A stretch of DNA of 64,000 nucleotides from Kitasatospora kifunensis (GTDB taxonomy: Bacteria; Actinomycetota; Actinomycetes; Streptomycetales; Streptomycetaceae), in the NCBI RefSeq assembly GCF_014203855.1, contig NZ_JACHJV010000001.1, forward strand, positions 7,564,001 to 7,628,000. Direction: 5' to 3'. The notes under the pieces are model-generated. The model ran no database searches, had not been told where the DNA came from, and saw only the letters and a list, made by a program, of their open reading frames with translations. The position numbers and the translations under genes are program-made. Of the stretch, positions 2,722 to 60,264 are shown in pieces (the first letter of the stretch is position 1; each line of letters starts with the position of its first letter).

Positions 2722-3471
2722 TCAGCCGTGCTCGCGGAGGTACGCCTCCAGCTCCGCGGCCCCGGTCAGCATCGCCCGCCCGCGGGTGGACAGCCGACCG
2801 TGCCAGCCGCACAGTGCGGCCTCCAGCGGCTCCAGCCCGCCGGCCGCCCGCACCTGGGCGAGCAGTGGGGCGATCTGTTCCAGCAGGTAGCCGCCCCGCC
2901 TGAGCTGGTGGGCCAGCCGGGCGTCCCGTACGTCGGCCTCGTCGTAGACGCGGTACCCGGTCCCTGGGTCGCGGCGCGGGCGCACCAGCCCGGCGCGCTC
3001 CCACTTGCGCAGCGTCGCGGGCCGGATGCCGAGCCTTCCTGCCAGCGGCCCGATGAACGTGCCGCCGGGTCCGGACCCCGCGACCGGCTCGGACCCCGCA
3101 CCGGGCTCGGGTGCCGTGGTGGACTCCAGGTCGCGGAGGGCGCTCTGCACGGCCTGGAGGGTCCGCCGGTCGTCGAGGAGCTGGGCGTGGCTCTCGTCGA
3201 TGAGGCGGAACGCCTCATCGACCGCGCCCTGGTTCACGGCCCGCATGATCGACGTCGCCCCCTGGTGGCCGTGGCCGGGCACCAGGGCGAGAAACGCGCG
3301 CAGGGCCCCCGCGTGCAGCGAGGTGTAAGTGCGGTAGCCGTGCGGTGTGCGACCGGCGGCCGGAAGGACGCCGGCCTCCTCGTAGTTCCTGACCGCCTGC
3401 GTGGACAGACCGTGCCCGCGTGCCAGATCAACCGGCCTGAGCCGATCACCGGTTTGAAGGTTTCTCCCCAT
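2722..3471 (-). CDS. MerR-type regulator with two DNA-binding domains (TioE-like)
   Basis: A predicted 249-aa transcription regulator with two MerR-like winged helix-turn-helix domains. The first is at about residues 8-75 (RPVDLARGHGLSTQAVRNYEE then HGYRTY). The second follows a Gly/Pro/Ser-rich linker (GPLAGRLGIRPATLRKWE then GTGYRVYDEADV). Canonical MerR proteins have one such domain followed by a coiled coil; the duplicated arrangement resembles the TioE group of actinomycete regulators. The ATG at 3471 was chosen because the frame upstream of it has no domain and would run through the neighbour. The gene is divergent from the esterase-like gene at 3530, with only 58 bp between them, so the pair is probably co-regulated. 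Ligand and target are unknown. Confidence 0.8.
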   Translation of the reverse strand: MGRNLQTGDRLRPVDLARGHGLSTQAVRNYEEAGVLPAAGRTPHGYRTYTSLHAGALRAFLALVPGHGHQGATSIMRAVNQGAVDEAFRLIDESHAQLLDDRRTLQAVQSALRDLESTTAPEPGAGSEPVAGSGPGGTFIGPLAGRLGIRPATLRKWERAGLVRPRRDPGTGYRVYDEADVRDARLAHQLRRGGYLLEQIAPLLAQVRAAGGLEPLEAALCGWHGRLSTRGRAMLTGAAELEAYLREHG

Positions 3472-3529
3472 GTACCTGACGATATCGCGGGAAAGTTTCA
3501 ACCGAAGGTTCAACGATAGCGTTGAAGGC
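3472..3529. promoter_or_regulatory. Divergent promoter with three 12-bp-spaced half-sites
   Basis: This 58-bp divergent intergenic region contains TTCAAC at 3497-3502 and 3509-3514 and its complement GTTGAA at 3521-3526. The three start exactly 12 bp apart. The last two form a 6-6-6 inverted repeat, and AACC-GAA-GGTT (3500-3510) is a nested palindrome. MerR-type operators are palindromes within the promoter spacer, so this is the likely binding site of the neighbouring double-HTH regulator. The last half-site touches the esterase start codon. Confidence 0.6.
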
Positions 3530-4747
3530 ATGGCTACTGACATCAAGGACGCCGCCCATGCCGTCGAGGCTGCCGCCGTCATGAGGCTGCTCCCGGCCCG
3601 GCCCCGGCTGCTCGCCCTGGGCGAGCCCACCCACGGCGAGGACACTCTGCTCGACCTGCGCAACGAGCTCTTCCGGCAGCTCGTCGAGCAGGAGGGCTAC
3701 CGGACGATCGCGATCGAGAGCGACTGCATGATGGGCCTGGTCGTGGACGACCACGTCACCTCGGGCACGGGCACCCTCGACGAGGTCATGGAGCAGGGCA
3801 TCAGCCACGGCTGGGGCACCTGCGCGGCCAACCGCGAGCTCGTGCGCTGGATGCGCGCCTACAACATCCGCGCCGACAACGACGGCCGGCCCGCATCCGA
3901 GCGGCTCCGCTTCGCCGGTTTCGACGGCCCGTTGGAGATCACCCACGCCGCGAGCCCCCGGCAGGCCCTCACCGCACTCCACGGCTACCTCGCGGCCCAG
4001 GTGGACGCGGACCTGCTCCCCTGCACCGGGGAAACGCTCGACCGCCTGCTCGGCGCCGACGACCGCTGGACCGATCCCGCCGCGATGACGGACCCGGCCC
4101 AGTCCGTGGGACAGTCGGCCGAAGCCGGCCAACTGCGCCTGCTCGCCGACGATCTGGTGGCGCTGCTCGACCAGCAGAGGCCGCACCTGCTCGCGACGAC
4201 CCCGCAGGACGCCTGGGACCGAGCGCGCCTGTACGGGCGCACCGCGACCGGCCTGCTGCGCTACCACTACTGGATGGCCGACACCTCACCGGCCCGCATG
4301 ACGCGGCTGTGCGCGCTGCGGGACTCGATGATGGCCCACAACCTCCTCGCCCTCGCCGAACGGGGCCCGGCACTCGTCCACGCCCACAACTCCCATCTCC
4401 AGCGGGAGAAGAGCACGATGCAGATGTGGCAGGGGCCGGTGCAGTGGTGGAGCGCCGGTGCGCTGGTGAGCGCCCAATTCGGCCAGGAGTACGCCTTCGT
4501 GGCCACGGCCCTCGGCACGATCCGGCACCGGGCAGTGGACACGCCGCCGCCGGACACCGTCGAAGGCCTCCTGTACGCGCTCCCGGAGGAGCGCTACGTC
4601 ATCGACGCCCCGCGACTGGCCACCACCCTCGGCGACACGCTGCCCGCGCCCCGCGTATCCCCCTGGTTCGGCTACTCCCCGCTTGCCCCGGCCCACTTGG
4701 CGGACAGCGACGGCATCGTGTTCGTCAAGGACGTCCCGCGAAGCTAG
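3530..4747 (+). CDS. Erythromycin esterase-like hydrolase
   Basis: A 405-aa protein of the erythromycin esterase family (EreA/EreB-like), recognisable from LALGEPTHGEDTLLDLRNEL near the N-terminus, the following IESDC segment, and the distal HAHNSHLQ motif. Characterised Ere enzymes hydrolyse the lactone of 14-membered macrolides, but many actinomycete homologues have no known substrate. ATG 3530 was chosen over the in-frame ATG 3470 because the latter would overlap the divergent gene and consume the operator. A GAAGG lies only 1 nt before ATG 3530, too close for a normal ribosome binding site, so translation may be leaderless. The partner is the divergent double-MerR regulator, a pairing that suggests inducible resistance. 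A link to the polyketide made nearby is inference only. Confidence 0.8.
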   Translation: MATDIKDAAHAVEAAAVMRLLPARPRLLALGEPTHGEDTLLDLRNELFRQLVEQEGYRTIAIESDCMMGLVVDDHVTSGTGTLDEVMEQGISHGWGTCAANRELVRWMRAYNIRADNDGRPASERLRFAGFDGPLEITHAASPRQALTALHGYLAAQVDADLLPCTGETLDRLLGADDRWTDPAAMTDPAQSVGQSAEAGQLRLLADDLVALLDQQRPHLLATTPQDAWDRARLYGRTATGLLRYHYWMADTSPARMTRLCALRDSMMAHNLLALAERGPALVHAHNSHLQREKSTMQMWQGPVQWWSAGALVSAQFGQEYAFVATALGTIRHRAVDTPPPDTVEGLLYALPEERYVIDAPRLATTLGDTLPAPRVSPWFGYSPLAPAHLADSDGIVFVKDVPRS

Positions 4748-7241: not shown

Positions 7242-10200
7242 TCAGCCGCCCTGACCGCCCTCGCCGAGTACGGCGGGATCCAACCGGAGGGCGAGCAGGC
7301 CGTCGGCCAGGCCGACCACGAGGTTGCCCTCCGCGGTGGTGAGGGCGTGGGCGGGGGAGTAGACGGGGATCTCGACGAGGCAGCGTGGGGTGAACGGGTC
7401 CCAGAGGCGGACGGTGCGGTCGACGCTCGAACTGGCGAGCAGGGAGCGTGAGCCGAGCCGGACGGGATGCAGGGCGGTGACGGGGGCGCCGTGGCCGTGC
7501 AGGGTGTGCAGCTCGACGCCGCTGACGGGGTCCCAGACGCGGACCGTGCGGTCGGCGGAGCCGCTGGCGAGGAGCAGTCGGCCGTCAGCGGGGAAGGCGC
7601 AGAGCGAATCCACCGAGTCGAGGTGACCGGTGATCGGGTCCAGCGCGGCGGCGGTGTCGTCCAGCCGCCACCGCTGGATCGTGCCGTCGGCCGCTCCGGC
7701 GGCGAGCAGGAGCTGGTCGGGGAGGTCCATCGCACACAGCGCCAGGATGGCGGTCGGTCGTTGCCTGAGCCGGTGCAGCGCCGTGCTGGTCTGCGGTTGC
7801 CAGATCCGCACGGTGCCGTCGCTGTGACCGGTGGCGAGCTGGCTGTGGATCGGGTGGATGCTCCGGATCGAGTCCATCACGCCCATCAGGAGGCGCTCGC
7901 GGCCCGACTCGGGATGCCAGAGCCAGACGCCGGGGCCCTGCCGACCGGTGCCGGCCAACACCGTGCGGTCGTCGACGCGGCTGCGGCAGAGCGTCAGCAC
8001 ATTGGGCGGGCCGGCGTGCCCGACCTGCACCGGGTCGCCGTCGGACGCCGCGCGGTACTGGGCCTCGCGGTCGCCTCCCGCGTAGGCCAGTACGGTCCTG
8101 CCGCGGATGTCGACGGTGGACAGGGTCGCCGCCTGGACGGACTGCTCGAGACGGCTCCCGGCCAGTGACCATCTGACGTCGGGGTGCCAGATCCGTACGG
8201 TGCGGTCGGCACCGCCACTGACCACCATCGCCCGGCCGTTGACCTGGACGGTGCAGACGCTGTTCACGGCGGAGCGGTGCCCTTGCAGGGCGCCGAGCGC
8301 TTTTGCCTTGCCGCCGGACTGCCAGAACAGCAGGTTGCCGCTGGCGTCGCCGGCGACGATGACCGCCTCGGTTGCCGGAAGTTGAATCGTGCAGAGCGCC
8401 GTGAGCGCGCCGGTCGGGTTGACCAGGGTCCGCCTGATCGCGCCCGTGCTGTAGTCATGGATCTCCAGTGCCGTGACGCGGCCCCAGGCGATGAGTCCCT
8501 TGCCGTGGGTCGGCACCCCGCACATGACCTCCGTGGGCCGCTGCCAGGGGGCGTAGTCCCGGACCGAGCCGTCGGCACCGGCCCTCCAGATCTTCGCCGT
8601 CCGGCCGTCGCCGTCCGTGATCAGGACCTCGTCGGCGGTGGCCCCGGAGACCTCGCCCAGCGGAACCAGCGGTCCGGCATGCCCGGCCAGCGAGCCGAGT
8701 TGATGTCCCGTCACCGGGTCCCAGAGCCGCACGGTGCGGTCCTCGCCCGAGCTGGCCAGCAGGTCGCGCCCGTGTGCCCGCACGGCGCACAGGTGGCGGG
8801 CCTCGCCGGCGTGCCCGTGCAGTGCGTGCAGGCGCCGACCGGTGAGCGGGTCCCAGAGTCGCACCGTACCGTCCGCGTTGGCGGTGGCGAGCCAGGGGCC
8901 CGCGGTGGTCGGCACGGTGCAGACGGCGTTCATGCGGCCGTCCTGGCCCGGGAGGATGTTCAGGATCTCGCCGGTGGCGGGGTCCCAGATCCGGACCGCC
9001 GACTCGTCCAGGCTGGCCAGCAGCGAGCGGCCCTCGGTGGGGATCTCGCAGACCGCGATGACCTCGCTCAGGTGCCCTTCCAGGACGGCTTCGGCCTTGT
9101 GGGTCGTGACCGAGGCCCACCGCGCCGTGTAGGGGACGCCGGGGACCTCACGTGTGTAGCCACCCGCCGGCAGACCTTCGCGGGCCTCGGTGACGGTGAA
9201 CATCGCGGCCCGTTCCGCCGGGGCGGCGGCGATGGCGCGCGGGGTGCGGCGCAGCAGGGTGGCCCGACGCCGGGCCGGTGCCCGGGTGGCGAGGTAGGCC
9301 TGCGGGATCAGCCGGGTGAGGTCCACCTGCAGCAGGTAGGCGTCGTCGGTGAGCAACTCGTCGATCATGCCGCCGCGCGCGGCGTGTCCGGGCAGCGCAC
9401 GGCGCAGGTAGGCCGGTGCCCGGTCCCAGCCCAGTGAACGGCCCACCTCCAGCAGGGTGCGGGTGATGGCGCGTTCGTCGCCCTCGGTGGCGTCGAGGTC
9501 GGCGCGGGCGCCGAGCAGGGCGTCGTTCAGGGCCTGGTGGAAGAGCCGGAAGAGCCGGTCGCTGCCCGTGTCGCTGGCCTCCACCAGGAAGTTGGCCGCC
9601 GAGGAGCGGGCGAAGGCCCGCAGCGCCTCCTCGCCGGGGGCCATCCCGTAGAGCGCGCTGATGGTGGCCCGCCACACTGCCAGCGGCATGCCGGGCGGCT
9701 CGGCGTACGCGAGCGCGGTCAGCGCGTCCCAGGCGGTGCAGCCCGCCACCGGCGGCAGCAGCTTGAGGTACTCGCGCAGGGCCGCGTCCACGGTCGGGGT
9801 GAACGCCACCGCGGCGGGGGCCACCGGTTCCCGGTCGGCCATCCCGTGGGTGCGCGCGACCAGGCCGGCGATCAGGAAGTTCTGTTCGGCCAGCGCGGCG
9901 ATCCGCTCGGCCACCGGGGCGGCCACCCGCTCGTCCTGGTACGGGTTGCCGGGCCGTTCGTCGCCGACCAGTTGCAGGGTGGCCAGCGCGTAGGCGGCCA
10001 GGTCGGCCTCGGCGAAGTAGGCGGCGTCGTCCAGGTCGATCTCGTGCTTGGCCGTCCCGAAGACGGTGAGCAGCCCGCCGCCGTTGTCCCGGCGTCGGCT
10101 GCCGAGCACCACCCGCACGCCCAGGTCGGAGCAGGTCTCGACCAGTGGCTGCACCACGGCGGTGATCACCGCGCGTGCCTCCGGCGGGCTCGCGGCCTCG

Positions 10201-11339
10201 TCCAGGGCGTCGATCACTACGTTGAACCCGTGCCGGTGACGGCTGCTCAAGGCGTCGCGCAGGGCGGGCGCGAGGTCCTGGGCGACGGCGGGCAGCGCGG
10301 CCGAGGCGGCTCGGGCGATCTCCTCGGCCACCGCCAGCGCGGTCTTGCCCTTGGCGTGCACGGCGCAGGCGATCGAGCCCAGCGGTGCTCGCACGGCGTC
10401 GTCCTGTGGCGGCAGGGCGGCCGCGATGGCGGCGTCGGCGGTGGTGACGATCCGGCCGAGCACCGCCGACTTGCCCACCCCGGGCGAGCCGGTGACCACC
10501 AGGGCCTGCCGCTCGGCGTCGCGGTCCAGCCAGTGCACGATCTCGCTCAGCGCGGCGGTGCGCCCGCGGAACCGGAAGCCCCGCTCCGCATCGGTGCTGA
10601 CCCCGCGGGCTCGCGGACGCCAGTGCCGGCGGGCCTCCGGGTCGCTGTCCAGCTTCCAGCCCCAGGCGGCCAGCGCGCCCTCGCCGGCGGCCTCCGCCGA
10701 CCACTCGGTGAGCTGGGCCAACTTCTGTTCGGGCAGGCAGAGATCGGCCATCCACAGGGTGATCGCCTGGGCGTCGCCGTGCTCCCCGTTCGCCTGACCG
10801 AGCACGCCCACCACGGCGTCGTACTCCGGCGACCAGAGGGCCGCCCCGCTGAAGCCCGGGCGGACGGGATAGCGGGAGCTGGTGTCCAGGCGCACCCAGC
10901 CGAAGCCGAGAGACTCGCCGACGCCGCCGTCGGCCGAGTTGCCGAGCAGGCGGCCGTTCGGGAAGCCGAAGGACCACCAGCTCTTGCCCACCAGGTCGTC
11001 GGGGGTCGGCCGGCGCAGCCGGGCCGCGGCGTGCGGGGGAGCGGGCTCGGCGAGCACCAGGACCGCCAGATCGGGCTGGGCGGCCTGGAACTGCGGCTCG
11101 GGCAGTACGACCTGCTCGACCTGGATCCGCCGGGTCATCAGCTCGGGCAGCTTGGGGAAGGCGACCCAGAGTTCGCCCTCCGGGCGGCTTGCCGGACGGG
11201 CGACGTGTGCGCAGGTCAGCACCCGACGCTCGTCGAGCAGGAAGCCCGAGCCGAGGGCCTCGCCGGCTGCCGAAGCATGGATGGAGGTCACCCAGCCGTC
11301 CGACGGCGGGCGTCGGACGGCGCGCTGCTCTCCACTCAC
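7242..11339 (-). CDS. Trypsin-like protease-STAND NTPase-WD40 protein
   Basis: A 1365-aa multidomain protein. Residues 1-205 form a trypsin-like serine protease with a visible triad: His45 in TCAHV, Asp90 in QPDLAVLVL and Ser164 in PGFSGAALW. Residues about 255-600 form a STAND/NACHT-like NTPase with Walker A GSPGVGKSA (284-291) and Walker B VVIDALDEA (374-382). Residues about 750-1360 are WD40 repeats, many ending in VRLWDP or VRIWDP, roughly 12-14 blades or two propellers. By family knowledge such proteins sense a ligand through the propeller, oligomerise on NTP binding and unleash the effector, here a protease. The start is GTG at 11339, overlapping the upstream gene's stop by 4 nt, so the two are translationally coupled. 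No signal peptide is visible, so it is probably cytoplasmic. The trigger and protease substrate are unknown. Confidence 0.85.
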   Translation of the reverse strand: MSGEQRAVRRPPSDGWVTSIHASAAGEALGSGFLLDERRVLTCAHVARPASRPEGELWVAFPKLPELMTRRIQVEQVVLPEPQFQAAQPDLAVLVLAEPAPPHAAARLRRPTPDDLVGKSWWSFGFPNGRLLGNSADGGVGESLGFGWVRLDTSSRYPVRPGFSGAALWSPEYDAVVGVLGQANGEHGDAQAITLWMADLCLPEQKLAQLTEWSAEAAGEGALAAWGWKLDSDPEARRHWRPRARGVSTDAERGFRFRGRTAALSEIVHWLDRDAERQALVVTGSPGVGKSAVLGRIVTTADAAIAAALPPQDDAVRAPLGSIACAVHAKGKTALAVAEEIARAASAALPAVAQDLAPALRDALSSRHRHGFNVVIDALDEAASPPEARAVITAVVQPLVETCSDLGVRVVLGSRRRDNGGGLLTVFGTAKHEIDLDDAAYFAEADLAAYALATLQLVGDERPGNPYQDERVAAPVAERIAALAEQNFLIAGLVARTHGMADREPVAPAAVAFTPTVDAALREYLKLLPPVAGCTAWDALTALAYAEPPGMPLAVWRATISALYGMAPGEEALRAFARSSAANFLVEASDTGSDRLFRLFHQALNDALLGARADLDATEGDERAITRTLLEVGRSLGWDRAPAYLRRALPGHAARGGMIDELLTDDAYLLQVDLTRLIPQAYLATRAPARRRATLLRRTPRAIAAAPAERAAMFTVTEAREGLPAGGYTREVPGVPYTARWASVTTHKAEAVLEGHLSEVIAVCEIPTEGRSLLASLDESAVRIWDPATGEILNILPGQDGRMNAVCTVPTTAGPWLATANADGTVRLWDPLTGRRLHALHGHAGEARHLCAVRAHGRDLLASSGEDRTVRLWDPVTGHQLGSLAGHAGPLVPLGEVSGATADEVLITDGDGRTAKIWRAGADGSVRDYAPWQRPTEVMCGVPTHGKGLIAWGRVTALEIHDYSTGAIRRTLVNPTGALTALCTIQLPATEAVIVAGDASGNLLFWQSGGKAKALGALQGHRSAVNSVCTVQVNGRAMVVSGGADRTVRIWHPDVRWSLAGSRLEQSVQAATLSTVDIRGRTVLAYAGGDREAQYRAASDGDPVQVGHAGPPNVLTLCRSRVDDRTVLAGTGRQGPGVWLWHPESGRERLLMGVMDSIRSIHPIHSQLATGHSDGTVRIWQPQTSTALHRLRQRPTAILALCAMDLPDQLLLAAGAADGTIQRWRLDDTAAALDPITGHLDSVDSLCAFPADGRLLLASGSADRTVRVWDPVSGVELHTLHGHGAPVTALHPVRLGSRSLLASSSVDRTVRLWDPFTPRCLVEIPVYSPAHALTTAEGNLVVGLADGLLALRLDPAVLGEGGQGG

Positions 11340-28875: not shown

Positions 28876-28980
28876 ATGGCCAGCTCCTCCGAGGACAAGC
28901 TCCGCGACTACCTCAAGAAGGTCACCGCAGACCTGCGGCGTACCAGGCAGCGCTTGGAGTCCGTCGAGGCCAGGCAGCAC
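28876..28980 (+). other. N-terminal docking domain of the 10462-aa PKS
   Basis: Residues 1-35 ([20 protein letters not shown] onward) form a class 1 docking coiled coil leading directly into the KS motif [15 protein letters not shown]. It is closely similar to the coil of the preceding PKS. The expected partner is the C-terminal helix of the 5613-aa protein. Confidence 0.85.
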
Positions 28981-43900: not shown

Positions 43901-46900
43901 AGGTCGACCGCAAGCGCCTGGCGACCCAGGGCGTGCCCGTGCTCGCGCACGACGCGGGCCTGGCTCTCTTCGCGGCCGGACTGCGCAGCGAGCGCGCCAA
44001 CCTCGTCCCGATCCGGGTCGACGCCGCCGCCCTGCGGGCCCGCACCGACGAGGTCCCCGCGCTGCTGCGCGGCCTGGCCCCGCGGGCCCGGCGGGCGGCA
44101 GCGGCCGCCACGCCGACCTCGACGCTCGCTCAACGACTGGCCGGGCAGACGGCCGGTGAGCGGCACCGCACCGTCCTGGGCATCGTGCGGGCACAGGTCG
44201 CCGCCGTGCTCGGGCACGCCTCGGCGGAGGCGATCGAGCCGCAGCGCGCGTTCCAGGAGCTCGGCTTCGACTCGCTGGCCGCGACCGAGCTGCGCAACCA
44301 GCTCAACACCCTCACCGGCCTGCGCCTGCCGGCCACCCTCGCCTTCGACTACCCCAACGCCCAGGCCGTCGCCAAGCAGATCATCACACTGCTCAATGAT
44401 CACGGAGACGGCGCGCCGGATGCGATGAGCCCGACCCGACGCACCGGCGTCGAACGCCCGTCCCATGACGAGCCGATCGCGATCGTCGGCATGGCCTGCC
44501 GCTACCCGGGGGTGACCACGCCCGAGGAGCTGTGGCAGCTGCTGGTCGACGGGCGCGACACCGTCGCGGACCTGCCGACCAACCGTGGCTGGAACATCGA
44601 GGACCTCTACGACCCCGAGGTCGGCAAGGAGGGCAAGAGCTACACGCGCCGCGGCAGCTTCCTCTACGACGCGGCCGAGTTCGACCCGGCGTTCTTCGGC
44701 ATCTCGCCGCGCGAGGCGCTCTACATGGACCCGCAGCAGCGACTGCTGCTCGAAGCGTCCTGGGAGGCGCTGGAGCGGGCCGGCATCGACCCGGCCTCGC
44801 TCAAGGGCAGCAGGACCGGCGTGTACGCGGGCGTCATGTACCACGACTACGCGCTGAACGCGAACCCCTCCGGCACCAGCGGCGGCAGCGTGGTGTCGGG
44901 CCGGGTCTCCTACACGCTCGGCCTGGAGGGCCCGGCGGTCACGGTCGACACCGCCTGCTCGTCCTCCCTGGTCGCGCTGCACCTGGCGGCTCAGGCGCTG
45001 CGCTCGGGCGAGTGCGAGTTGGCGCTGGCAGGTGGCGCCACGGTGATGTCCACGCCGGGGATGTTCATCGAGTTCAGCCGGCAGCGCGGGCTCTCCGCGG
45101 ACGGCCGGTGCAAGGCGTTCGCCGGCGCGGCGGACGGTGTCGGCTGGTCGGAGGGCGTCGGCGTGCTGCTCGTCGAGCGGCTCTCGGACGCGCGGCGCAA
45201 CGGCCACCAGGTGTTGGCGGTGATCCGCGGTTCCGCCGTCAACCAGGACGGCGCGAGCAACGGCTTCGCCGCTCCCAACGGGCCGTCGCAGCAGCGGGTC
45301 ATCCGGCAGGCTCTGGCCGCGGCCGGTCTCTCGCCTGCCGAGGTCGACGCGGTGGAGGCGCACGGCACGGGCACCACGCTCGGTGACCCGATCGAGGCAC
45401 AGGCACTGCTGGCGACCTACGGTCAGGACCGGCCCGCCGACCGGCCGTTGCTGCTCGGCTCGGTGAAGTCCAACCTCGGCCACGCCCAGGCTGCGGCAGG
45501 CGTGGCGGGTGTGATCAAGATGGTCCTGGCGATGCGGCACGGCGTGCTGCCGCGCACCCTGCACGTCGATCAGCCTTCACCGCATGTGGACTGGTCCGAA
45601 GGCGCCGTCGAACTGCTCACGGAGTCCGTCGACTGGCCGGTCACCGACCGTCCGCGCCGGGCGAGCGTCTCGGCGTTCGGGATCAGCGGCACCAACGCAC
45701 ACGTGGTCCTTGAGCAGCCTGCGGCGACTCCTTCGATGGCTGACGAACCGTCAACTTCACATGGTGTTCTGCCATGGCTGCTCTCCGCCGCGACACCGGC
45801 GGCCCTGCGGGCCCAGGCCGAGCGGCTGCGGTCGTTCCTGCTGTCCGACCCGACACTGAGCCCGCTGGCCACGGCCACCGCGCTGGCAACGACCCGCGCC
45901 GCGCTGGAGAGCCGGGCGGTGGTGATCGGCACCGGACGGGACGAGCTGCTCGCCGGCCTCGGCGCACTGGCGCAGGGCGACTCCGCGCCCGGCGTCTTCA
46001 CGGCCTCGGCGCGCGGTGGCGACCTGACGGCGTTCCTCTTCTCGGGGCAGGGCTCGCAACGCCTTGGCATGGGGCGTGAACTGTACGACCGCTTCCCGGT
46101 GTTCGCGGCGGCGTTCGATGCGGTCTGTGCGGGGTTGGACGAGCACCTGGAGCGGCCGATCCGCGAGGCTCTCTGGGGCGCGGACGCGGACCTGCTCAAC
46201 CAGACGGTGCACGCCCAGGCAGGGCTGTTCGCGATCGAGGTGGCGCTGTTCCGGCTGCTCGAATCCTGGTCGGTGAGCCCGGACTTCGTGGCCGGGCACT
46301 CGATCGGTGAGGTGGCTGCGGCGCACGTCGCCGGTGTCTTCTCGCTGGCGGACGCGTGCGCCCTGGTGGCGGCTCGCGGACGGTTGATGCAGGCGCTGCC
46401 TGCAGGCGGCGCGATGCTCGCCGTGCAGGCGACCGAGGACGAGGTCCTTCCCCTGCTCAACGACCGTGTCTCCATCGCGGCTGTGAACGGTCCGAGCTCC
46501 CTGGTGGTTTCCGGCGCCGAGGAGGCGGTGGCGGCGATCCGTGCTCACTTCGATGGCGAGGGTCGCAAGGTCACTCTGCTGCGGGTGTCGCACGCGTTCC
46601 ACTCCCCGCTGATGGACCCGATGATCGACGACTTCCGCCAGGTCGTCGCCGGCCTCTCCCTCCACACTCCGACCATCCCGGTCGTCTCCAACCTGACCGG
46701 CGAACTCGCCGCACCCGAGCAGCTCTGCTCCCCGGAGTACTGGGTGCGGCACGTGCGTGAGGCGGTGCGCTTCGCCGATGGCATCGCGTGCCTGTCGGCC
46801 CAGGGCGTGACCCGCTTCCTGGAGCTCGGCCCGGACGGCGTCCTCACCGCGCTGGCCGCCGACTCTGCCGCCGGTGCGGTGTTCGCCCCGGTCCTGCGCA

Positions 46901-49900
46901 AGGACCGGAGCGAGGAGTCCACCGTCGTGGAGTCCGTGGCTCGCCTGCACCTGCATGGCGCCAAGGTCGACTGGACCGCGATCTTCGCCGGCGTCGATGC
47001 CCGGCAGGTGGAGCTGCCGACCTACGCCTTCCAGCGTCAGCACTACTGGCTCGACGCCACCAGCGGCTCCAGCGACCTGAGTTCGGCCGGTCTTGGCTCG
47101 GCGGCGCACCCGCTGCTGGGAGCAGCTGTCGAGCTGGTCAACGCCGACGGTTACCTCTTCACCGGTCGGCTGTCGCTGACCACACACTCGTGGCTGGCCG
47201 ACCACGCCGTGCTCGGGAGCGTGCTGCTCCCCGGTACCGGGCTGCTCGAACTCGCGCTGCGGGCGGGCACGGAGGTCGGCTGCGCCACGGTCGAGGAGTT
47301 GACACTGGCCGCGCCGCTGCTGCTGCCCGAACAGGGCGGCGTGCAGGTGCAGGTCTGGGTCGGCGAGTCGGATGGCAGCGGTCGCCGCGAACTCGCCGTG
47401 CACTCCCGCCCGGACGACGGCCAGGGCGAGGAGTGGGTGCGCCACGCGTCCGGTTTCCTGACGCCTGGCGCCACCGAGCCCTTGAGCTTTGATGCTTCGG
47501 TCTGGCCGCCGACCGGCGCCGCGTCGGTGTCGATGGACGGCGCCTACGAAGGCTTCGCGGCTGCCGGGTTCGGCTACGGGCCGGCATTCCAGGGGCTGCG
47601 GGCCGTCTGGCAGCGCGGTGAGGAACTGTTCGCCGAGGTCGAGCTCCCGGCCGACGTCGACGGTGCCGCGTTCGGCGTGCACCCGGCCCTGCTCGACGCC
47701 GTCATGCATGCGGCGATCCTCACCAGCTCCGGCGAGTTGGCGATTCCGTTCCTGTGGAGCGGGGTGTCGCTGCACGCGGTTGGTGCGTCGGTGGTGCGGG
47801 TGCGGTTGACCCGTCTCGGCGATGGTGGGCTGTCGCTGGCGGTGGCGGACAGCACGGGTGCGCCGGTGCTGTCGGTGGGCTCGATGGTGGGCCGTCCGGT
47901 GTCGGCGGAGCAGTTGGGTGCTGCTGCTGGTGTGTCGAGTGGGCCGTTGTACGGGGTGGATTGGTCGGTGGTGCCGTCGGGTGATGGGGCGGGTCTGAGC
48001 TGGGTGGCGTGGGAGGAGTTGGCCGAGTCCGGGCCGGTGCCGGATGTGGTGGTGCTGGACTGCGGTGTGCCGGTGGAGTCGCTGTCCGTGCCTTTGGCGG
48101 TCCGTGCGGTGGCGCACCGGGTCCTGGCGGTCGTTCAGTCGTGGTTGGTGGATGAGCGGTTTGCTGGTTCTCGGTTGGTGGTGGTGACGCGTGGTGCGGT
48201 GGCCACGTGTGAGGGTGTGGGTGTGGATGTGGTGCAGGCTCCGGTGTGGGGTCTGGTGCGGTCGGCGCAGGCGGAGAATCCGGGTCGGTTCGTGTTGGTG
48301 GATACGGATGCCGGTGTGGACGATGGGTTGTTGTCTGCGGTGGCGGTGGGTGAGCCGGAGTGTGCGGTGCGTTCGGGTGCGGTGTGGGTGCCGCGTCTGG
48401 TGCGGTTGGCGCCGGTGGATGTGTCGGAGTCGGTGGTGTTCGATCCGGCGGGGAGTGTGTTGATCACGGGTGGTACGGGTGGTCTGGGTGCGGTGGTGGC
48501 CCGGCACCTGGTGGCCGAATTCGGTGTGCGTCATTTGGTGTTGACCAGTCGTAGTGGTCTGTCGGCGTCGGGTGCGCCGGAGTTGGTGGCGGAGTTGGCT
48601 GAACTCGGTGCCGAGGCGCGGGTGGTGGCCTGTGATGTGTCGGATCGCGAGGCGTTGGCGGGGCTGTTGGCTGGCGTCGGGCGTCCGTTGACGGCGGTGG
48701 TGCATGCGGCGGGTGTGGGTGACAACGCGCTGGTGGGTGCGCTGACTCCGGAGCGGATGGATGCGGTGCTCGCGCCGAAGGCGGATGCGGCGTGGTATCT
48801 GCACGAGTTGACCCGGGAGCTGGATCTCGCGGCGTTCGTGCTCTTCTCGTCCGCTGGTGGTCTGGTGTTGACGGCGGGTCAGGGTAACTACGCGGCGGCG
48901 AACGTGTTCCTGGACGGTCTGGCGGCTCAGCGTCGGGCCGAGGGCCTGGTCGCCACCTCGATGGCCTTCAGCCTCTGGGAGGTCGGCGCCGGCCTCGGCG
49001 AGTTCCTGCGGGACGTGGACCGCAAGCGGATGGCGACCCAGGGCGTTCCCCCGCTGACCCATGACGCGGGCCTGGCTCTCTTCGCGGCTGGGCTGCGCAG
49101 CGAGCGGGCCAACCTCGTCCCGATCCGGGTCGATACCGCCGCCCTGCGGGCCCGCACCGACGAGATTCCCGCGCTGCTGCGCGGCCTGGCCCCGGCGGTG
49201 CGGCGAGCCGCGACGGCCGCCGTCGCGTCGACGGTGACCCTGGCGGAGCGCCTGGCCGGCCTGACGGCGGCCGAGCGGCACCGCACGGTGCTGCACCTGG
49301 TGCGCACCGAGGTCGCCGCCGTGCTCGGGCACGCCTCGGCGGAGGCGGTTGAACCGGACCGCGCCTTCCAGGAGCTCGGCTTCGACTCGCTGGCCGCGAC
49401 CGAGCTGCGCAACCACCTCAACACCCTCACCGGCCTGCGCCTGCCGGCCACCCTCGCCTTCGACTACCCCAACGCCCAGACCGTCACGGACCACGTCACT
49501 GCTGAGCTGTGGCCGGCCGGGACGGTCGGCAGCGGCGAGAGTGCCGTAACCGGCGAGGACGAGCTCCGCGAGGCACTGCGGTCGATCCCGACCAGTCGCC
49601 TGCGCGACGCGGGGCTGATGGACAGCCTGCTCGAACTGGCGGAGATCAACCCCCTCGACATCGCGGACGTCAATGCAACTCAAGAAGAGGACGTCAGCAC
49701 AACCCAAGAAGGTGACACCGGCGACGCGCTGAGCGCCGCCCGCAAGGATGCGGCCCAACTGCGGGCGCAGAACCGCAAACTCACCGCGAGCCGGCACGAG
49801 CCGATCGCCATCGTCGGCATGGCCTGCCGCTACCCGGGCGGCGTGGTGACGCCGGAGGACCTGTGGCGGCTGGTGAGTTCGGGCGGTGACGCGATCTCGA

Positions 49901-52900
49901 CCTTCCCGAACGACCGTGGCTGGGACCTGTCCGCGCTGCGCGACCCGAACGCCGAGCGCCCGGACACCTACTACACCCGCGAAGGCGGATTCCTGCACGA
50001 GGCAGCGGAGTTCGACCCCGGCTTCTTCGGCATCTCGCCGCGCGAGGCGCTGGCCATGGACCCGCAGCAGCGACTGACGCTGGAGCTCTCCTGGGAGGCG
50101 CTGGAGCGGGCGGGGATCGACCCGACCTCGCTGCGCGGCACCCGCACCGGTGTCTTCGCCGGTGTGATGTACCACGACTACCCCGGCAGCGACGGCAACG
50201 GCAGCGTGGTGCCGGGCCGGGTCTCCTACAAGCTCGGCCTGGAGGGCCCCGCGGTGTCGGTCGACACCGCCTGCTCGTCCTCCCTGGTCGCGCTCCACCT
50301 CGCGGTTCAGGCGCTGCGCCAGGGCGAGTGCTCGCTCGCACTGACCGGTGGTGTCACCGTGATGGCGACACCCGGTGTCTTCGTCGAGTTCGGGCGCCAG
50401 GGCGGTCTCGCCTCGGACGGCCGATGCAAGTCCTTCGCCTCGGCCGCCGACGGCACGGGCTTCGCCGAGGGCGCGGGCTTCCTCGTGGTCGAGCGGTTGT
50501 CGGACGCTCAGCGCAACGGCCACCAGGTCCTGGCGGTCATCCGCGGCTCGGCCGTCAACCAGGACGGCGCGAGCAACGGCCTCACCGCGCCCAACGGCCC
50601 CTCCCAGCGCCGGGTGATCCGGCAGGCCCTGGCCAACGCCCGCCTGGCAGCCGACCAGATCGACGTGGTGGAGGCGCACGGCACGGGGACCACACTGGGC
50701 GACCCGATCGAGGCGCAGGCGCTGCTCGCGACCTACGGCCAGGGCCGAGCGGCGGAACAGCCGCTCTGGCTCGGCTCGGTGAAGTCGAACATCGGGCACA
50801 CGCAGGCGGCCGCCGGTGTCGCCGGCGTGATCAAGATGGTGATGGCGATGCGCAACGGCGTTCTGCCTTCGACCCTGCACGTGGACGAGCCCAGCCACCA
50901 GGTCGACTGGACCACGGGCGCGGTCCGGCTGCTGACCGAGACCCGGGAGTGGGCTGCCACGGGGCACCCGCGCCGGGCGGGCGTCTCGTCCTTCGGGATC
51001 AGCGGCACCAACGCGCACGTCCTGGTCGAGGAGGCACCCGCACCGGCCCCGGCGGCGCCCGGCGAGTCCGAGCCGACCGTGACCGCGACCGCGACTGCGA
51101 CCGTGCACCCGGCGCCCGTCGTCCCCTGGCTGCTCTCCGCCGCGACCCCGGACGCGCTGCGTGCGCAGGCCGAACGGCTGCTCTCGCTGGTCAGCGGTGA
51201 GCCGGAGCCTCGTCCGCTGGACATCGCCTTCTCACTGGCCACGACCAGGGCCGCACTCGAGCACCGGGCGGCAGTGGTTGCCGCCGATCGCGACGAACTC
51301 CGCTCCGGGCTGGGTGCGTTGGCACGTGGCGAGCGGCCCACGGGCGTGGCAGCCGCCGGACTCCAGGCGTTCCTGTTCTCGGGGCAGGGTTCGCAGCGCC
51401 TGGGGATGGGGCGTGAACTGTACGACCGTTACCCGGTGTTCGCGGCGGCCTTCGATGCGGTCTGCGCGGGGTTGGACGAGCACTTGGACCAGCCGATCCG
51501 CGAGGCCCTCTGGGGCGCGGACGCGGACCTGCTCAATCAGACGGTGCATGCCCAGGCAGGGCTCTTCGCCCTTGAGGTGGCCCTGTTCCGGCTGCTCGAA
51601 TCCTGGTCGGTGAGCCCGGACTTCGTGGCCGGGCACTCGATCGGCGAGGTGGCTGCGGCGCATGTCGCCGGTGTCTTCTCGCTGGCGGACGCGTGCGCCC
51701 TGGTGGCGGCACGCGGCAGGCTGATGCAGGCGCTGCCCGCTGGCGGCGCGATGCTCGCCGTGCAGGCCACCGAGGGCGAAGTCCTTCCCCTGCTCAACGA
51801 GCGTCTCTCCATCGCGGCCGTGAACGGCCCGAACTCCCTGGTGGTTTCCGGCGCCGAGGAGGCGGTGGCGGCGATCCGTACCCACTTCGATGGCGAGGGT
51901 CGCAAGGTCACTCTGCTGCGGGTGTCGCACGCGTTCCACTCCCCGCTGATGGACCCGATGCTCGAAGACTTCCGCCAGGTCGTCGCGAGCCTGGCGCCGC
52001 AGGCTCCTCGCCTTCCGGTGGTCTCCAACCTCACCGGCACTCTCGCCACGGCCGAGCAGCTCTGCTCGCCGGAGTACTGGGTGCGGCACGTGCGTGAGGC
52101 GGTGCGCTTCGCGGACGGTATCGGGTGCCTGTCGGCTCAGGGTGTGACCCGCTTCCTGGAGCTCGGCCCGGACGGCGTCCTGTCCGCGCTGGCGGCCGAA
52201 TCCGCCGGCGAGCAGGCGGTGTTCATCCCGGTCCTGCGTAAGGGCCGTGCCGAGGAGTCCGCCGAGGAGTCCGCGGTGGTGGACGCCCTGGCCGGGTTGC
52301 ACGTCAGCGGTGTACAGGTCGACTGGGCCTCGTTCTACGCCGAAACCGACGCTCGCACGGTCGAGTTGCCCACCTACGCCTTCCAGCACCAGCGGTTCTG
52401 GCCGGCGGTGATGGCGTTCGCCGGTGGCGCGGAGTCCGTCGGGATGACCCCGGCGCAGCACCCGCTGCTCACGGGAGCGGTGGAACTTGCGGGCTCCGCA
52501 GGGTTCTTGCTGACCGGTCGGCTGTCTGTTCAGTCGCACGCGTGGTTGGCGGATCACGTGGTGCTCGGTTCGGTGTTGGTTCCGGGGACGGCGCTGCTGG
52601 AGCTGGCGGTGCGGGCCGGTGATGAGGTGGGCTGTGAGCTGGTGGAGGAGTTGACGCTGGCCGCGCCGCTGGTGCTGCCCGAGGTGGGTGGTGTGCGGGT
52701 GCAGGTGTGGGTCGGTGAGCTGGACGACTCCGGGCGGCGTGCGGTGACGGTGCACTCGCGTCCGGATGGGGCAGACGAGCAGGCCTGGACCTTGCACGCG
52801 AGTGGTGTGCTGTCGGCCGAGGCGGTCGAGCCGCTGGCGTTCGATGCCTCGGTGTGGCCGCCGGTCGGTGCCGAGCCGATGTCGGTCGACGGCGTGTACG

Positions 52901-58900: not shown

Positions 58901-60264
58901 CGGTGTCGGAGCCGGTGTCGGAGTTGCCCGGCGAGTCGGTCCGGCCGGTCTGGCCGATGGACGGCACGGTCCTGATCACCGGTGGTACCGGTGGCCTGGG
59001 CCGGGTGGTGGCGCGCCACCTGGTCGCCGAGCACGGGGTGCGCAGCCTGCTGCTGGTCAGCCGTCGCGGCGCCGCGGCGGACGGCGCGGCCGAACTGGTC
59101 GCCGAGCTGGCGGCCTTGGGAGCCGAGACGGTGGTCGAGGCCTGCGATGTCGCGGACCGCGAAGCCGTGACGGACCTGATCGACCGTCACCCCGTACGCG
59201 CGGTCGTGCACACGGCCGGCGTGCTGGACGACGGCGTCCTGACCACCCTGACGCCCGAGCGCCTGGCCGCCGTCTGCCGCCCCAAGGCGGACGCGGCCTG
59301 GCACCTGCACGAGGCGACCAAGGGCCTCGACCTCGACGCCTTCGTCCTCTTCTCCTCGGCGGCGGGCACCCTCGGCAACGCGGGGCAGGCCAACTACGCG
59401 GCGGCCAACGCCTTCCTGGACGCGCTGACCCGCCACCGCCACGCTCTCGGCCTGCCGGGCGTCTCGCTCGCCTGGGGACCCTGGGCCCGCACCGCCGGCA
59501 TGACCGGCGAGCTCAGCGACTCGGACATCGAGCGGCTGACCCGGGCCGGGATGCCGCCGCTGACCCCGGAGCAGGGGTTGGCGTTGCTGGACGCGGCGGT
59601 GGCGGGTGCGCGGCCCAGCGTGCTGCCGGTCCGCCTGGACCTGGCCGCCCTGCGAGCCCGCGGCGAGGTGCCGGCCCTGCTGCGCGGCCTGATCCGCACG
59701 CCCGCCCGGCGCGCGGCGGCCGTGGGCGCGGGCGACCTCGTCCAGCGCCTCTCGGCGCTGCCGCAGGTCGAACGGCGGGAGGCGCTGCTGGAAGCGGTGT
59801 GCGGCCAGGTGGCCGCGGTGCTCGGCCACGGCGGTGCGGCGGAGGTGGATCCCGACCGGGCCTTCAAGGACCTCGGCTTCGACTCGCTGACCGCGATCGA
59901 GCTGCGGAACCGGTTGAACCAGGCAACGGGGCTGCGCCTGCCGGCCACCCTGGTCTTCGACTACCCGACGCCCGGTGAGCTGGTGGACCAGCTGTACACC
60001 CAGCTCGAACTCGCCCCCGCCGAGCAGTCGGGCCCTGCGGCACTGCTGGCCGAACTGGCCAAGCTGGAGCGCTCGTTCGCCGAGGTGGAGGTCGACGCTG
60101 AGGTGTTCGAGCAGGTCGCGGGGCGCCTGGAGGTCCTGAAGGCGAAGTGGGGCGCGCTGCGCGGCGACGCCACCGCGGCTCCCGAGGGCGGCGCGTTCGA
60201 CTTCGACACCGCCTCCGACGAGGAGGTCTTCGACCTCTTCGACAACGAGTTGGGCCTCTCCTGA
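28876..60264 (+). CDS. Giant type I PKS, six malonyl DH-KR modules (polyene synthase)
   Basis: A 10462-aa polyketide synthase with an N-terminal docking coil, six complete modules and a C-terminal docking domain. Every module is KS-AT-DH-KR-ACP, every AT has GHSIG/HAFH (malonyl-CoA), and every DH keeps its HxxxGxxxxP and HPALxD motifs. It should therefore install six consecutive conjugated double bonds. Size and module number resemble the NysC and AmphC proteins of polyene macrolide pathways. There is no ER and no TE. Between modules 7 and 8 lies an unusual 97-residue insert that looks like a fused C-terminal plus N-terminal docking pair. Modules share near-identical DNA tracts over 1 kb long, and codon usage switches between C-ending and G/T-ending styles in blocks. 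The start codon follows the previous PKS stop by 63 bp, with only a weak CGAGG ribosome binding site. Confidence 0.96.
28981..34170 (+). other. PKS module 4: KS-AT(malonyl)-DH-KR-ACP
   Basis: The KS (28981-30255) has Cys codon 29494 in TACSSAL (Ser-Ala after the Cys-Ser, unlike CSSS in the others). The AT (30580-31440) has GHSIG (Ser codon 30853) and HAFH (31144-31155). The DH (31732-32570) has His codon 31828 and Asp codon 32365. The KR (33106-33640) is B-type with LDD at 33370 and Tyr codon 33541. The ACP Ser is at codon 34042. Predicted result: the first double bond of the polyene, next to the methyl branch from module 3. Confidence 0.92.
31447..31491 (+). repeat. Five 9-bp in-frame repeats after AT4
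   Basis: GGCCTGCCT/GGCCTGCCC units, four clear copies and a fifth degenerate one, encode (Gly-Leu-Pro)n near the C-terminal end of the AT4 region. Confidence 0.75.
35511..35530. repeat. CTGAC-N5-GTCAG palindrome in the KS-AT linker of module 5
   Basis: CATTTCTGAC GATCT GTCAG has the same left arm as the module 1 element at 13371 and sits in the same KS-AT linker. The right arm is shortened. The homologous linkers of modules 6 and 9 have a decayed form around GACGATCCGTC. Confidence 0.75.
36928..37305 (+). repeat. DH tract shared by modules 5 and 8 (copy 1)
   Basis: About 380 bp covering the DH N-terminal half differ from 52516-52893 by only scattered substitutions, mostly synonymous. The downstream KR tracts of the two modules (about 37765-38615 and 53356-54206) are likewise very similar. 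Confidence 0.8.
39590..40803 (+). repeat. 1.2-kb KS tract shared by modules 6 and 9 (copy 1)
   Basis: Bases 39590-40803 align without gaps to 55188-56401 (constant offset 15598) with few substitutions, covering most of the KS and the KS-AT linker. Long stretches are letter-for-letter the same, including third codon positions. This indicates recent duplication or gene conversion. Confidence 0.85.
42636..43868 (+). repeat. 1.2-kb DH end/KR tract shared by modules 6 and 7 (copy 1)
   Basis: This tract is nearly the same as 47751-48980, with one 3-bp length difference near 43190. Similarity stops abruptly just after the KR catalytic region, at the shared ATGGCCTTCAGCCTCTGGGA, which marks a conversion boundary. 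Confidence 0.85.
45740..45754. repeat. TGAC-N5-GTCA palindrome in the KS-AT linker of module 7
   Basis: TGAC GAACC GTCA (45741-45753), coding for ADEPST, is a weaker member of the palindrome family at the same linker position as the elements in modules 1 and 5. Confidence 0.6.
47751..48980 (+). repeat. 1.2-kb DH end/KR tract shared by modules 6 and 7 (copy 2)
   Basis: Second copy of the tract at 42636-43868. Both have unusually many GTG, TTG and GGT codons compared with flanking C-ending codons, so they read as blocks of foreign-looking style within the gene. Confidence 0.85.
49506..49797 (+). other. Internal docking-domain pair fused between modules 7 and 8
   Basis: Residues about 6878-6974 lie between ACP7 and KS8. 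The first part ([20 protein letters not shown] then MDSLLELA, from codon 49558) resembles the C-terminal tails of separate PKS proteins. An Asp/Glu/Thr-rich stretch follows, with a short repeat of [14 protein letters not shown]. The last part ([20 protein letters not shown], from codon 49723) resembles the N-terminal coil that precedes a first KS. Other intermodule linkers here are only some 15-40 residues. The simplest reading is a fusion of two ancestral PKS genes that kept both docking segments. Confidence 0.75.
49798..54870 (+). other. PKS module 8: KS-AT(malonyl)-DH-KR-ACP
   Basis: The KS (49798-51030) has Cys codon 50272 and a slightly divergent sequence ([28 protein letters not shown]). 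The AT (51367-52210) has GHSIG (Ser codon 51637) and HAFH (51928-51939). The DH (52459-53280) has His codon 52555 (SHAWLADH, with Ala for the usual Pro) and Asp codon 53047. The KR (53803-54340) is B-type with LDD at 54064 and Tyr codon 54235. The ACP Ser is at codon 54733. Its KS follows a docking-like coil, as expected for the first module of a protein. Predicted result: one double bond. Confidence 0.92.
52516..52893 (+). repeat. DH tract shared by modules 5 and 8 (copy 2)
   Basis: Counterpart of 36928-37305 at a constant offset of 15588, with long letter-for-letter runs across third codon positions. Confidence 0.8.
54913..60010 (+). other. PKS module 9: KS-AT(malonyl)-DH-KR-ACP
   Basis: The KS (54913-56180) has Cys codon 55420 and the TDAQQR variant. 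The AT (56476-57320) has GHSIG (Ser codon 56749) and HAFH (57040-57051). The DH (57562-58390) has His codon 57658 and Asp codon 58165. The KR (58963-59500) is B-type with LDD at 59224 and Tyr codon 59395. The ACP Ser is at codon 59884. Predicted result: the sixth double bond, conjugated to the thioester. The chain must then move to another protein, because no TE follows. Confidence 0.92.
55188..56401 (+). repeat. 1.2-kb KS tract shared by modules 6 and 9 (copy 2)
   Basis: Second copy of the tract at 39590-40803. The portion 55530-55680 instead matches module 5 (34832-34982) letter for letter, so module 9 KS is itself a mosaic of module 5-like and module 6-like sequence. Confidence 0.8.
60016..60261 (+). 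other. C-terminal docking domain of the 10462-aa PKS
   Basis: Helical segment [20 protein letters not shown] and onward, then an acidic tail ending [15 protein letters not shown]. It is the same class as the tail of the 5613-aa PKS. The partner protein carrying module 10 is not in the window. Confidence 0.82.

Follow-up and report, generated by a model that had tools for sequence, protein, structure and literature searches.

A probable scar of an old gene fusion at a class 1b docking junction within a six-module polyketide synthase of Kitasatospora kifunensis

The closest described counterparts of the element analysed here are the class 1b docking domains of polyketide synthases (PKSs), as in the PikAIII-PikAIV docking pair (PDB 3F5H). 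In class 1 C-terminal docking domains the helices alpha1 and alpha2 serve dimerisation and helix alpha3 makes the contact with the N-terminal coil, as stated in PMC9113145. In PMC1994986, Thattai et al. (2007), whose H2-T2 class we take to be class 1b, place docking regions at protein termini only and never in the interior. Of 462 catalogued cis-AT subunits, 88% contain no more than three modules (PMC12284057), and together with the restriction of docking to the termini this means that natural joins of the size described below run against the trend. Such joins have been engineered: when 14 bp with the stop and start codons were removed, sceQ and sceR were fused and production continued, although the yield was lower (PMC5785472, the reference list of which also cites the engineered fusions of the borrelidin and lankacidin PKSs). 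A report of a natural docking relic in the interior of a PKS protein was not recognised in the openly licensed literature (CC0, CC BY, CC BY-SA), which is not proof of absence.

The window, i.e. the whole stretch of 64,000 nucleotides from Kitasatospora kifunensis that was analysed, contains the gene of a six-module type I PKS of 10462 aa, here called P2 (28876..60264, + strand). According to its motifs each module has the order KS-AT-DH-KR-ACP, and the KS domains start at aa 36, 1783, 3480, 5199, 6975 and 8679. The two ends of P2 are of the class 1a docking type, with an N-terminal helix (28876..28980, +; 48 bits with Pfam Docking) and a C-terminal tail (59989..60261, +), and the same type is found at both ends of P1, the three-module PKS upstream of P2 (11971..28812, +). 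The original prediction was therefore right in that the true termini of these two proteins use a different docking class than the interior element described below. Upstream of P1 and mostly beyond the window lie Pa (six modules), Pb (two modules) and Pc (three modules), the last of which has a thioesterase-like motif and ends at window position 2599. DH and KR motifs are present in P1 module 3 and in P2 modules 1-6, which gives seven consecutive DH-KR modules, and a gene for a GDP-mannose dehydratase lies near the cluster. Judged from this run of motifs and the dehydratase gene, the product of the cluster may be a heptaene macrolide. Its proteins can presumably be likened to the candicidin proteins FscB-FscF, and AmphC, NysC and FscC, which we take to be hexamodular polyene synthase proteins, are possible orthologues of P2. 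Like these presumed relatives P2 combines six modules in one protein, in its case six DH-KR modules.

Between the fourth ACP and the fifth KS of P2 (ACP7 and KS8 in the earlier count) an insert of 97 residues was confirmed at aa 6878-6974, corresponding to 49507-49797 (+), where the start had first been placed one base early at 49506. The insert opens with LWPAGTVG, and EPIAIVG follows directly on its last residue. The ACP of module 4 in front of it (49273..49506, +) is taken as the last domain of an ancestral upstream protein and the KS of module 5 behind it (49798..51072, +) as the first domain of an ancestral downstream protein. The insert begins with a variable linker from the ACP to helix alpha1 (49507..49557, +), followed by alpha1-alpha2, the dimerisation element of a class 1b C-terminal docking domain (49558..49644, +). 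Behind these comes an acidic spacer (49645..49719, +), where alpha3, the stop codon, the intergenic DNA and the start codon would have been, and then the putative remnant of a class 1b N-terminal docking coil, alpha4 (49720..49797, +). That an acidic stretch joins the two halves had been seen correctly, as the spacer has seven D/E and no K/R in 25 residues.

Compared with PikAIII/PikAIV, the insert shares the alpha1-alpha2 hairpin after the ACP and a putative coil of the pattern ALRxS..LRxxNRxL before the KS. However, it lies in the interior of a protein, its alpha3 is undetectable, one hydrophobic residue of the coil is charged, and the first turn of the coil is gone together with the start codon. 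The position within an uninterrupted ORF of 10462 aa, and not at a protein terminus, breaks the termini-only rule in a wider sense only, because the 'head' of Thattai et al. is alpha3 alone, and this helix is missing here.

Ordinary ACP-KS linkers of cis-AT PKSs occupy the same position within one chain but are of a different length. From junctions that could be delimited by pattern, 77 intermodule linkers were obtained and sorted by the presence of RLRDAGL, a motif of alpha1-alpha2. All 60 linkers without the motif measure 22-31 aa (median 26), whereas the 17 with the motif measure 61-147 aa, so that the insert is not a common feature of ordinary junctions. In a plasmid collection 123 records matched a query that ran from the ACP through the insert to the start of the KS, and in each of the six records examined (L093-L098) an annotated gene end lies within the match. 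Four of these (L093-L096) have class 1b-like tails on read-through, and in L093-L095 a clear hairpin is missing. The junction is of class 1a in L097 and of another type in L098, which indicates that some of the plasmid matches are carried by the ACP and KS parts of the query.

Scored with a profile that was built from 20 real tails of class 1b, the insert reaches 52 bits (E 4.6e-15), and none of 1000 shuffled inserts was reported at E <= 10. None of 13 other intermodule linkers of the cluster scores above 1.6 bits with this profile (the pattern delimited 14 of the 15 internal junctions; the exception is in Pc), and when 24 linkers and termini of the cluster were scored, only the insert and the Pa tail exceeded 2 bits. 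The match of the N-terminal coil profile to the insert is weak, with 13.4-13.6 bits (E about 0.002), and Pfam Docking (PF08990) aligns its positions 15-29 of 29 with insert residues 80-94 at 18 bits (E 0.0024), below the cut-off of 20.9; the second half of the coil is the part that is present. As the training tails of the tail profile had been picked via a motif of the insert, two sequences of this cluster that had entered via the coil side, the Pa tail and the Pb coil, were compared pairwise with the insert, and in 0/1000 shuffles was either score reached. The docking-profile search of aa 6878-6974 thus did find the similarity that had been proposed, i.e. a first half like the tail of an independent PKS protein and a second half like the coil before a first KS. 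Neither of the two outcomes that had been named in advance as refuting, a lack of such similarity or a wide spread of the insert at ordinary junctions, was obtained.

A search of the own genome with the insert gave six further places (E up to 0.4), and all six are true gene ends of PKSs, either of other PKSs or of this cluster. One example is a tail ...EAGLLETLLALV...DDMDVADLVQRALGTTN*, which is followed by the start MTAPDEQIVNALRASLKENARLQQENQRL. Real split class 1b junctions are found elsewhere in the same genome, and within this cluster Pa and Pb meet at one; the insert also matches the split tails L020 and L027 of another cluster. The profile of the split coils matches PDB 3F5H with E 6.6e-10 and that of the split tails, in its alpha3 part, with E 1.4e-4, and the insert is therefore assigned to class 1b. 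On sequence comparison both of its halves are homologous to ends of class 1b docking pairs. Searched alone, the insert hit 0 families of NCBIfam and gave no phmmer match in the PDB at E <= 10. All 29 Foldseek matches at E <= 0.001 were matches of the carrier protein. In a search of the phylum with the insert 1/396 genomes was found, which is its own genome.

The reading frame is uninterrupted through the junction, and the sequences on its two sides match termini that form a cognate pair. There is good support for two PKS genes having fused in frame at a docking junction, and this part of the original prediction stood. The part that gave each ancestral gene three modules did not, as four modules of P2 lie upstream of the insert and two downstream. 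Probably an old in-frame fusion at a class 1b junction left the insert behind as its scar, where docking decayed once the joint was covalent and dimerisation was kept. The ancestral upstream gene would have ended after module 4 of P2 with alpha1-alpha2-alpha3, and the downstream gene, with two modules, would have begun with alpha4, the coil that precedes the module 5 KS. A deletion spanning the stop and start codons would then have joined both genes. The split relative L096, in which the stop and the likely next start are three codons apart in the same frame (the annotated start lies 18 codons past the stop), shows how near such a joining can be.

In the engineered sceQ-sceR fusion two adjacent PKS genes were likewise joined in frame at a docking junction (PMC5785472), whereas the fusion in P2 appears to be natural and old, is common to several genera and has a decayed docking helix. 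With the junction covalent, docking would no longer have been needed, and alpha3 and the binding face would have been free to decay. The hydrophobic coil residue that is taken to face alpha3 would have become charged and the spacer loose, while the dimer parts would have been kept; the coil before the KS would have been retained in most lineages and is absent in some.

A motif scan of genome contigs gave 39 loci, 19 of them fused and 20 split, and the fused loci belong to Kitasatospora, Streptomyces, Actinokineospora enzanensis and Sinosporangium album. In a search that used the KS after the insert only, and is thus independent of the helix motif, 16/375 genomes of the family matched at E <= 1e-217. 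The interior helix is present in 15 of the 16 matches, and the remaining one is split (G256, 79% identical) and sits in a differently built cluster. In the orthologue of G920 four KSs lie ahead of the junction KS within one frame of 11164 aa. Two of the 15 interior matches are damaged near the junction: L078 is without part of the ACP and L074 has a frame change upstream of the helix. Such damage, and the fact that PKS repeats do break assemblies, would fit an assembly or sequencing artefact that joined two genes. However, the same in-frame junction is found in many separate assemblies, e.g. in G052, G007, G238 and G341 with contigs of 8.8, 8.9, 8.1 and 6.9 Mb, and an artefact is exceedingly improbable. 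The KS search of a class-wide sample matched 2/325 genomes, both already known. A split gene at this point in orthologous clusters, for which the original prediction had proposed to look, was not found: in the 375 + 325 sampled genomes the KS search (with 4-5 candidates each scored where many were found) gave no orthologue that is split at this module position.

The fused KSs form one clade (SH-aLRT 99, 20 rows). This clade has a support of 100 in a tree of 94 rows that includes internal KSs (14 fused rows; row L007c is L084 from G007), and of 100/99 in a further tree that held 5/20 split rows. In the tree with internal KSs the KSs of the modules flanking the junction also group by orthology. 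The simplest account would be that the genes fused once, in an ancestor that these clusters have in common, and horizontal spread of the cluster may also have occurred. In the KR-ACP tree, which covered 12/19 named fused loci and the window, the fused rows and P2 module 3 fall inside a group that has the Actinomadura sp. 7K507 split junction as its neighbour (90), and the fused rows form no clade by themselves. In the first KS tree the fused clade was nested among split KSs (89). This nesting was dropped as evidence, because the rows had been selected by the helix motif and the 94-row tree leaves the sister unresolved; in the latter tree class 1b-initial KSs are scattered, with 9 changes for 11 rows.

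The direction from split to fused is one that we infer, as a split gene at the same position was not found. It is suggested by the split junctions, which are widespread compared with the one fused clade, and by what the fused form lacks, and not by a rooted tree. In the reverse direction an interior hairpin with a coil would be ancestral and separate genes would have arisen from it by fission, with which the failure to find a split orthologue in the 375 + 325 genomes agrees. This is very improbable, as ends of class 1b are spread over many clusters that differ from each other whereas the interior form is a single clade, and as fission would need to invent alpha3 and its partner surface, since the interior copies are without alpha3.

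Helix alpha3 (SIDAMDxESLIxxAL) is undetectable in all 18 fused linkers that were scored by PSSM, and a 19th linker is too short to hold it. The 18 linkers score -0.2 or lower, compared with 42.6-48.4 for the four training tails and 24.4 for the untrained Pa tail, and the insert of the window scores -13.7 (shuffle p 0.83). A stretch of 10 residues in the insert that looks like alpha3 by eye was rejected, since -13.7 is the best score in this linker. Alpha3-like stretches in 3/18 linkers (L044, p 0.016; L049, p 0.019; L036, p 0.043; all from shuffles) have scores far below those of real tails and were not counted.

In the coil the L of 'ASLK', which by the heptad pattern would face alpha3, is L, V, I, M or A in 25/25 split coils (the 20 without L059, plus six added by hand, among these L013 with a shortened start). 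In 15 fused coils this residue is R (14) or Q (1). Other positions are mostly retained in the fused coils (13-15/15), namely A and L in 'ALR', A in 'AS', L in 'RLR' and the N. At the hydrophobic position four residues ahead of the L in 'ALR', 15/15 fused coils have D, T, S, A or G, as expected if the first turn of the coil is gone. In 5/20 fused rows (L039, L040, L047, L048, L053) the coil is absent, and the best tree accounts for this by two state changes.

The original prediction had held that the fused genes kept a covalent docking pair, and had seen in it either a fossil of how giant polyene synthases arise or a working intramolecular clamp. In a working clamp the tail would still bind the coil, within the chain or across the dimer. 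For such a clamp speaks that both halves are recognisable and covalently joined. However, the helix responsible for coil contact in class 1 docking (PMC9113145) is undetectable in the scored linkers, the residue taken to face it is charged or polar in 15/15 fused coils, and the coil itself is missing from five rows. By the state of alpha3 and the R/Q residue an intact docking clamp is largely refuted, and the chance that the tail still binds the coil is very small. The dimerisation element was kept, and the coil in 15/20 rows.

The joint is not under uniform selection. The pN/pS is 0.25 for the ACP, 0.88 for the variable linker with the ACP end, 0.375 for alpha1-alpha2, 0.99 for the spacer and 0.21 for the KS; for the coil it is 0.81 when all 19 rows are taken and 0.56 when the count is restricted to the 14 with a coil. 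As the scan of the genome contigs used RLRDAGL, the conservation of this motif is partly built in, and without it alpha1-alpha2 has a pN/pS of 0.49. By these ratios alpha1-alpha2 is under purifying selection and the spacer drifts neutrally. In K. kifunensis the GC3 of the spacer is 0.64, compared with 0.88-0.95 for the neighbouring parts. In some orthologues the spacer has short repeated units (DVRNEH, EHEGN, DG; L034 near 8001-8459, L049 near 40-513), which may explain its changing length.

The neutral spacer, together with the absence of the coil from five of the fused rows after two changes of state and the range of linker lengths from 61 to 147 aa, would also fit an insert that is in its entirety a decaying scar, with the spacing of ACP and KS as its sole role. 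This is unlikely, as alpha1-alpha2 has a low pN/pS, with or without the scan motif, directly next to a stretch with 0.99, and as RLRDAGL is present in 15/15 interior junctions that were found via the KS alone. If instead docking decayed and dimerisation was kept, as we prefer, alpha1-alpha2, and the coil where present, would today keep both chains of the dimer attached to each other midway along a six-module protein, and the free spacer would let the ACP reach the KS. A model of the ACP with the insert (37 rows, mean pLDDT 83.1) has the ACP, helices at 95-105, 108-113 and 116-123 and the coil as a long helix at 151-175, with an unsure helix at 128-137 and a pLDDT < 50 in the stretch 138-147 of the spacer. 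The model from the ACP to the KS is poor (mean pLDDT 43.6).

We tentatively suggest, as a possibility that we rate at somewhat below even chances, that the fusion turned the C-terminal dimerisation element to a new use as an internal staple, which holds the two chains in register and lets so long a dimer work. If this is true, docking and dimerisation, which are normally one unit, were separated by evolution. The orthologues offer a natural record of the way in which a giant synthase may have grown, by a single fusion and then the absence of alpha3, a charged coil residue, a neutral spacer and, for some lineages, a missing coil. For engineers the series suggests that alpha3 may be droppable when subunits are fused, and that alpha1-alpha2 is the part kept by selection.

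Some further observations were made on P2 and its surroundings. The KSs of P2 modules 2, 3 and 6 (window 34222, 39313 and 54910) form a tight group with short branches, from which those of modules 4 and 5 stand apart. In their KR-ACP pieces modules 3 and 4 share 89% identity. Together the KS group and this identity point to recent copying or gene conversion within P2. The 31-aa linker preceding the KS of P2 module 4 (window 44377-44469; KS at aa 5199) is, with its KS, unlike the other ordinary linkers and KSs of P2, and may be an older, fully worn junction.

Amid the PKS genes lies an ORF of 1365 aa with a trypsin-like domain and WD40 repeats (window 7245-11339, -), and an erythromycin esterase family protein is encoded next to the PKS genes (window 3470-4744, +). 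Just outside the cluster three paralogous ORFs of 505-546 aa were found, the second halves of which are repeat-rich (L067, G000:C1:7501043-7507860). About 30 kb beyond P2 a protein is encoded that has AMP-binding, ACP, KS, AT and ACP domains and a class 1a-like tail (L069:7069-12642 (-), G000:C1:7654065-7659641), and judged from its domains it is a candidate starter-loading protein for the cluster.
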